From Actinomycetota bacterium (GTDB lineage: Bacteria; Actinomycetota; Coriobacteriia; Anaerosomatales; Anaerosomataceae): 44,681 nucleotides of DNA. Positions 28,250 to 29,043 of the stretch are shown piece by piece. The position numbers and the translations under genes are program-made. The notes below the pieces were generated by a model. It saw nothing but the letters and a program-made list of their open reading frames with translations. It had not been told where the DNA came from and made no database searches. Where the stretch lies: positions 99,380 to 144,060 of the forward strand of contig RCMX01000007.1 in the NCBI GenBank assembly GCA_004348925.1, in the 5' to 3' direction. Each line of letters begins with the position of its first letter. Positions within the stretch are counted from its first letter, which is position 1.

Positions 28250-28283
28250 CGGCGTTTACCCCGCGAGTCCGCGGATAACGCCG
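28250..28283. terminator. Hairpin at the convergent junction
   Basis: Two nested stems, CGGCGTT/AACGCCG (28250-28256, 28277-28283) and CCGCG/CGCGG (28261-28265, 28270-28274), cover the stop region between the dehydrogenase-like gene and the selenoprotein gene. No T-run follows on either side, so termination is tentative. Confidence 0.4.
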
Positions 28284-28720
28284 AGAACGTCCTCGGCGTG
28301 ACCGTCGAGGTGCACTTTCGGCCACACGTGCGCGATCGCCCCGTCCGGGCCGATGAGGAACGTGCTGCGCTTGGCGGTGACGCCGAGGACCTCGCGTGCG
28401 CCGTACGCTTCGATGATCGACTTGTCGGTATCGGAGATCATCGGGAACGTGAGTTCGAACTTGTCGATGAACCGCTGCTGAACCTCCGGCTTGTCTGCGC
28501 TGACGCCCACCACGAGGGCGTTCAGGGCTTCCAGTTCGCTCTTGTGCGCCTGGAAGTCCTTGGCTTCGTGCGTTCAACCGGGGGTGTTCGCGCGCGGGTA
28601 GAAGTAGATGACCACCCATTCGCCGGCATGCGCCGACAACTCGAAGGTGCCACCACCTGTGACGGGCGCTGCGATAGCGGGGGCGGTGTCGCCGACGGCG
28701 GGCAGGAGGTTCTCGGGCAT
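28256..28720 (-). CDS. Selenocysteine peroxiredoxin (BCP/Prx-Q type), UGA read as Sec49
   Basis: A 154-aa thiol peroxidase-type protein reducing H2O2 and organic peroxides. The frame runs from ATG 28720 (AAGGAGC just upstream) to TAA 28256 with one internal UGA at 28574-28576. The UGA is residue 49, in ANTPG-U-THEAKDF, exactly where Prx proteins have the peroxidatic Cys (NTPGCT). Both flanks match the family without frameshift: FYPRANTPG before, THEAKDFQ to SADKPEVQQ, TFLIGPDGAIAHVW and GLAG after. A SECIS-like hairpin begins about 14-18 bases after the UGA. No Cys occurs anywhere else and the resolving Cys five residues on is Lys, so it is a one-Sec enzyme needing an external reductant. A split pseudogene is the only alternative and looks unlikely. 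Convergent with the previous gene. Confidence 0.9.
28524..28560 (-). promoter_or_regulatory. Bacterial SECIS-like hairpin
   Basis: Within the coding sequence downstream of the UGA, CTTCCAG (28556-28550) pairs with CTGGAAG (28534-28528), extended by AGG/CCT beyond one mismatch. The loop (28549-28535) starts with G at the 25th base after the UGA. Known bacterial SECIS elements have the apical loop about 16-37 bases after UGA with a G among its first two bases, so the position fits. It would bind SelB to direct Sec-tRNA to the ribosome. Confidence 0.75.
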
Positions 28721-28794
28721 GGGGCTCCTTTCGTAGGTTCTCGTAGTATCTACCTCTGATAGGATTCTTCTCACGACCCGGGGAGGTGCGACGC

Positions 28795-29043
28795 GTGGCT
28801 CAGTGCATGTTGCGGATGACGAATGGGATCGATGGCGTGCCCTGCGATGAGGGTATGTGCACGTATTGGCGCGTCGTGGAGCACCTCGATCTGGGCGGCA
28901 TTCCGGCCGAGGGCTGCGCGGTGCAGCATTTCCGGCTGCTTGTCGACGGAGACAGCGACCTCGCCGCCTGGCTGTTGAGCGTCAAAGAGCGTGTTGAAGC
29001 GCGTGAGCGCTCCGATCGCGATCGAACGGAGACGGCCCGATGA
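28795..29043 (+). CDS. 82-aa Cys-containing protein, unknown
   Basis: Not recognised. The 82-aa product (GTG at 28795, GGGGAGG 8 bases upstream; GTG at 28786 overlaps that site and is less likely) has Cys residues at 4, 17, 22 and 43, the middle two as CDEGMC, and a hydrophilic charged C-terminus (SVKERVEARERSDRDR). The Cys spacing could bind a metal. It is divergent from the selenoprotein gene across a 74-base spacer and its stop overlaps the next start (ATGA), so it heads a coupled run of small genes leading to the NYN protein. Confidence 0.7.
   Translation: MAQCMLRMTNGIDGVPCDEGMCTYWRVVEHLDLGGIPAEGCAVQHFRLLVDGDSDLAAWLLSVKERVEARERSDRDRTETAR

Follow-up and report, generated by a model that had tools for sequence, protein, structure and literature searches.

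Can a UGA codon at the catalytic position of a peroxiredoxin-like reading frame be read as selenocysteine (Sec), and if so, what kind of enzyme results? The question is raised by a minus-strand gene in the window, the whole 44,681-nucleotide stretch of DNA that was analyzed. When TGA is translated as a residue, the frame contains a single in-frame TGA at codon 49, reads MPENLLPAVGDTAP...VVIYFYPRANTPG-U-THEAKDFQAHKSELEALNALVVGVSADKPE... and closes with a terminal TAA (Table 1). Standard gene calling would stop at the UGA, as the initial annotation had anticipated for a routine gene caller, making this gene an example of those broken by standard annotation. Judged from its sequence, the product is almost certainly a selenoprotein: a BCP/PrxQ-type peroxiredoxin in which a peroxidatic Sec49 is inserted at the in-frame UGA and presumably recycled by an outside thiol.

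Table 1. Coordinates of the peroxiredoxin gene and its associated elements in the window.
Feature	Position	Strand	Description
Sec-containing BCP/PrxQ peroxiredoxin gene (predicted)	28256..28720	-	154 aa; ATG at 28720; stop TAA
UGA codon 49, read as selenocysteine (predicted)	28574..28576	-	Peroxidatic position (T-P-G-U-T)
AAAGGAG, ribosome-binding-like (Shine-Dalgarno-like)	28725..28731	-	4 bases 5' of ATG; read from sequence
Bacterial SECIS-like hairpin within the gene	28524..28560	-	UGA to apical region about 24-28 nt

The reading frame has coding character on both sides of the UGA. G+C content by codon position is 0.67/0.56/0.83 before the TGA and 0.68/0.38/0.86 after it, and the gene contains no Cys codon. 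Elsewhere in the window, UGA is a normal terminator, ending 7 of 27 genes (genes picked by composition). A small open frame of 85 aa that does contain Cys lies divergent from the peroxiredoxin gene at 28786-29043 on the plus strand and has no Pfam match.

Both sequence and fold place the encoded AhpC-TSA domain in the BCP/PrxQ subfamily. The protein matches Pfam AhpC-TSA (PF00578) at 1e-35, and a phmmer search against solved structures returns Xanthomonas BCP/PrxQ as the best match (1e-28), with the peroxidatic Cys of that enzyme aligned to the TGA. An AlphaFold model based on 29 sequences from the order reaches a mean pLDDT of 90.5, and BCP/PrxQ structures rank first in a Foldseek search with it (TM about 0.8-0.9). 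The fold is shared with Xanthomonas campestris PrxQ/BCP (PDB 5iox, 3gkn; Foldseek E about 1e-15, TM about 0.8), whereas Cys48 and the second Cys84 of that protein correspond to Sec49 and Ile85 here. A TxxU motif is present (T46-P-G-U49); T46, H51, E52, and R118 are invariant, and P42 is nearly so. These results bear out the initial annotation, which had described a UGA at the peroxidatic Cys position of a BCP/PrxQ protein, family-like sequence on either side of it, a Lys at the resolving position (Lys54, five residues past the UGA), and a protein devoid of Cys.

Assignment to more specific peroxiredoxin classes is constrained by the same comparisons. The best NCBIfam match is PrxQ, at 121 bits, which is below the curated cut-off of 260. 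A two-Cys PrxQ with an internal disulfide is rejected, as the resolving sites in helix 2 (five residues past the peroxidatic Cys) and helix 3 are occupied by Lys54 and Ile85 in a protein that has no Cys. PrxU of Eubacterium acidaminophilum, a strict anaerobe, was the first Sec-peroxiredoxin to be studied. The window protein is likewise a predicted Sec-peroxiredoxin but belongs to a different subfamily from PrxU, which NCBIfam (NF040737) names thioredoxin-dependent: it scores 50.9 bits against that model, for which the curated cut-off is 270.

The UGA is conserved among relatives of the source organism. A search covering 199 relatives yielded matches in 33, all of the same genus, family, or order, at 58-84% protein identity and each with exactly one internal TGA, a degree of retention far exceeding chance. 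At the loci read out, which include the window's own copy, the codon is TGA in 30 of 30, flanked on either side by conserved protein sequence; 28 of these copies are without any Cys. The other two, L030 and L037, carry a Cys directly after the Sec (PGUC), and L037 has one further Cys near its end. Named public genomes, scanned separately, gave 25 loci, nearly all from metagenome-assembled genomes labeled Actinobacteria, Coriobacteriia, or Anaerosomatales, and TGA is found in all 24 in which the site is readable. Judging by these labels, the source organism probably belongs to, or is closely related to, the Coriobacteriia order Anaerosomatales (OPB41). In homologues read from elsewhere in the phylum, the position is Cys in 24 of 24, mostly followed five residues later by a second Cys, so that alignment around residue 49 reveals Cys or Sec there, as the initial annotation had proposed to check. 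A maximum-likelihood tree gathers the Sec proteins on one branch with support of 100/99. As a side observation, a contig labeled Chthoniobacter (L068), possibly misbinned, contains a partial copy with 66% identity to the Sec-PrxQ proteins of the order.

A hairpin downstream of the UGA provides a candidate signal for Sec insertion. It spans roughly 13 to 50 nt past the UGA and reads AAGGACU(U)CCAG...CUGGAGUCCUU or a variant of this. Because the RNAalifold covariation term is only weak (-0.3), a synonymous-shuffle test was used, in which the protein is kept and the genes' own codon choice is applied. In all 29 sequences, the 42-nt stretch is more stably folded than the average shuffle (mean z -2.6); at 18 other gene offsets, mean z values run from -0.75 to +0.51. 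Stem cells are paired in 88.5% of cases versus 20-55% when the partner is slid. One stem pair shows a GC-to-CG double change; compensatory changes are few, in part owing to the strong conservation of the coding sequence. The choice between GAA and GAG at codon +15 tracks Ala or Ser at codon +16 in such a way as to keep the stem paired (GAA at +15 in 7/11 versus 0/17; Fisher p 0.0003, with kinship not corrected).

The published bacterial SECIS rules call for a G among the first two loop bases and a loop lying 16-37 nt from the UGA (PMC13188914). The distance here fits. The conserved stem has a large apical region of 15 nt, which opens with G in 28 of the 30 copies, whereas the window's own minimum-energy fold adds a 3-bp ministem with the loop ACAAGA, which does not fit the rule. 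Considered together, the 15-nt apical region and the window's minimum-energy loop match the published model only in part. The initial annotation had reported a hairpin with a G-starting loop at the expected distance within 28522-28576; the hairpin and its distance hold, its extent is narrower (Table 1), and the G start applies to the conserved stem but not to the window's own fold.

The genome also encodes the machinery that Sec insertion needs. All four genes that the initial annotation had suggested searching for are present: the tRNA-Sec gene (selC), with a UCA anticodon, at C6:187028, selB at C6:180221, selA at C6:177733, and selD (L042) at C6:176275-177189. All score above curated cut-offs and cluster on the window's contig, about 32-43 kb past the right end of the window. 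The selD gene has an in-frame TGA of its own (KSGU; STKSGUAAKW), and its predicted product is a Sec-containing selenophosphate synthetase. A further gene, L071, on contig C1 (region of C1:615408-615668), encodes a lipoprotein-like protein with rhodanese and thioredoxin-fold parts, in which a UxxC motif (DWUPAC) includes an in-frame TGA; it is probably another selenoprotein.

These observations allow other readings of the codon to be weighed against Sec. The UGA could be a real stop or nonsense mutation, so that the gene would be a pseudogene or give a short product of 48 residues, as would be expected from its ordinary role as the terminator of other window genes and from where standard gene calling would end. 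Such a stop is hard to reconcile with the recurrence of this UGA in dozens of independent genomes, strict conservation of the downstream protein, a full set of Sec machinery, and a conserved hairpin, and this explanation is highly improbable. A sequencing or assembly error for TGC or TGT, for which only the general possibility of such errors speaks, is the least probable of all: the same codon occurs in 33 other genomes of the order assembled by different groups, and its retention in independent genomes excludes an error for practical purposes. An open frame alone leaves the inserted residue unnamed, and decoding as another amino acid through a suppressor or a changed code, such as Trp or Gly, would also account for it. 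Genome-wide reassignment is nevertheless ruled out by the window genes that UGA terminates, homologues have Cys at this position, and tRNA-Sec with its UCA anticodon, SelA, SelB, and SelD are present together with a SECIS-like hairpin; decoding as a residue other than Sec is accordingly given very little credence. Of the contrary findings that the initial annotation had named (a genome lacking Sec machinery, TGC or TGT at the codon, or homologues with neither Cys nor Sec there), none occurred.

If codon 49 is read as Sec, tRNA-Sec and SelB would insert it at the UGA, directed by the hairpin just downstream. By analogy with other peroxiredoxins, the selenolate of Sec49 would be held in place by Thr46 and Arg118, both conserved, and would reduce hydrogen peroxide or an organic peroxide, being converted to a selenenic acid. 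Since the protein is without Cys, no internal selenenylsulfide can form, and an outside thiol would have to carry out the reduction. The most likely reductant would be thioredoxin fed by thioredoxin reductase; in the genome, a classical thioredoxin gene (C6:89727-90023) adjoins a thioredoxin reductase gene (C6:90096-90995). The peroxiredoxin gene itself stands alone, outside any redox operon. The neighboring genes (GSDH/CWB2, HD-domain, DUF554, YacP-like, and beta-eliminating-lyase) show loose synteny that is conserved in part, and no redox operon or linked reductase was found among them.

It is also conceivable, although unlikely, that the Sec enzyme has a main role other than thioredoxin-coupled peroxide removal. 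It might, for instance, serve as a chaperone, sense peroxide, or depend on a low-molecular-weight thiol or persulfide for its reduction. A linked reductant gene is absent, reduction by thioredoxin is not self-evident without a resolving Cys, and a PrxQ with chaperone activity has been reported (PMC6590489). The conserved PrxQ active-site residues, the thioredoxin and thioredoxin reductase pair in the genome, and the existence of thioredoxin-dependent PrxQ peroxidases (e.g., PMC5811025) argue instead for a peroxidase served by thioredoxin.

Sec-containing peroxiredoxins of this type have clear precedents. Listed families of prokaryotic selenoproteins include the COG1225 (Bcp) peroxiredoxin with a TxxU motif (PMC9312934, PMC13188914), which has 43 Sec-containing sequences in the Sargasso Sea set (PMC1088965), and peroxiredoxin selenoproteins have been recorded in Deltaproteobacteria, Clostridia, and Symbiobacterium (PMC1794560). 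The initial annotation was therefore right that Sec-containing peroxiredoxins are known, but it understated the precedent in limiting them to a few anaerobes, given a catalogued family with dozens of environmental members (PMC1088965, PMC9312934, PMC13188914). The window gene fits the sequence definition of this family, sharing with it the BCP/PrxQ type, Sec in place of the peroxidatic Cys, a Thr three residues before the Sec, and, past the UGA, a SECIS-like hairpin, which in the window gene matches the published bacterial model only in part. It is thus a well-supported addition to an already known family rather than a new kind of protein. It differs in belonging to a clade that extends across an order of Coriobacteriia-related bacteria, most of them uncultured, and in that the window protein is free of other Cys, a state counted in this clade only. 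A literature search on selenoproteins of Coriobacteriia or OPB41 returned no relevant reports.

The Cys-free state is best regarded as a mild variation. Single-Cys PrxQ proteins of other Actinomycetota (L084, L098) offer a parallel, having one catalytic residue, in their case Cys, and no resolving Cys; the tree does not place them as sisters of the Sec clade, although its long branches make their position unsure. A broader reading is put forward tentatively, as somewhat less likely than not to hold in full: the order may possess a Sec-dependent, Cys-free PrxQ subfamily, with no return to Cys in any genome seen and a glutathione-peroxidase-like cycle using an outside thiol, in which a few families have gained a PGUC Cys that could form a vicinal selenenylsulfide. 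Members with PGUC, and hence a possible vicinal Sec-Cys pair, are L030, L037, L058, L064, L066, and L116.

The gene adds a well-supported selenium-peroxidase clade from Coriobacteriia-related bacteria about which little is known. Being entirely free of Cys, its product offers a clean natural setting for studying the recycling and over-oxidation resistance of a lone-Sec peroxidase, with PGUT and PGUC natural variants available for comparison.

Other genomes of the order contain further peroxiredoxins with an in-frame TGA (L107, L108, L110, and L112), which have a TPVU active site, are about 26-35% identical, and belong to AhpE-like or other peroxiredoxin groups. The window's own genome yielded none of these. 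Several Sec-peroxiredoxin lineages seem to exist in the order.
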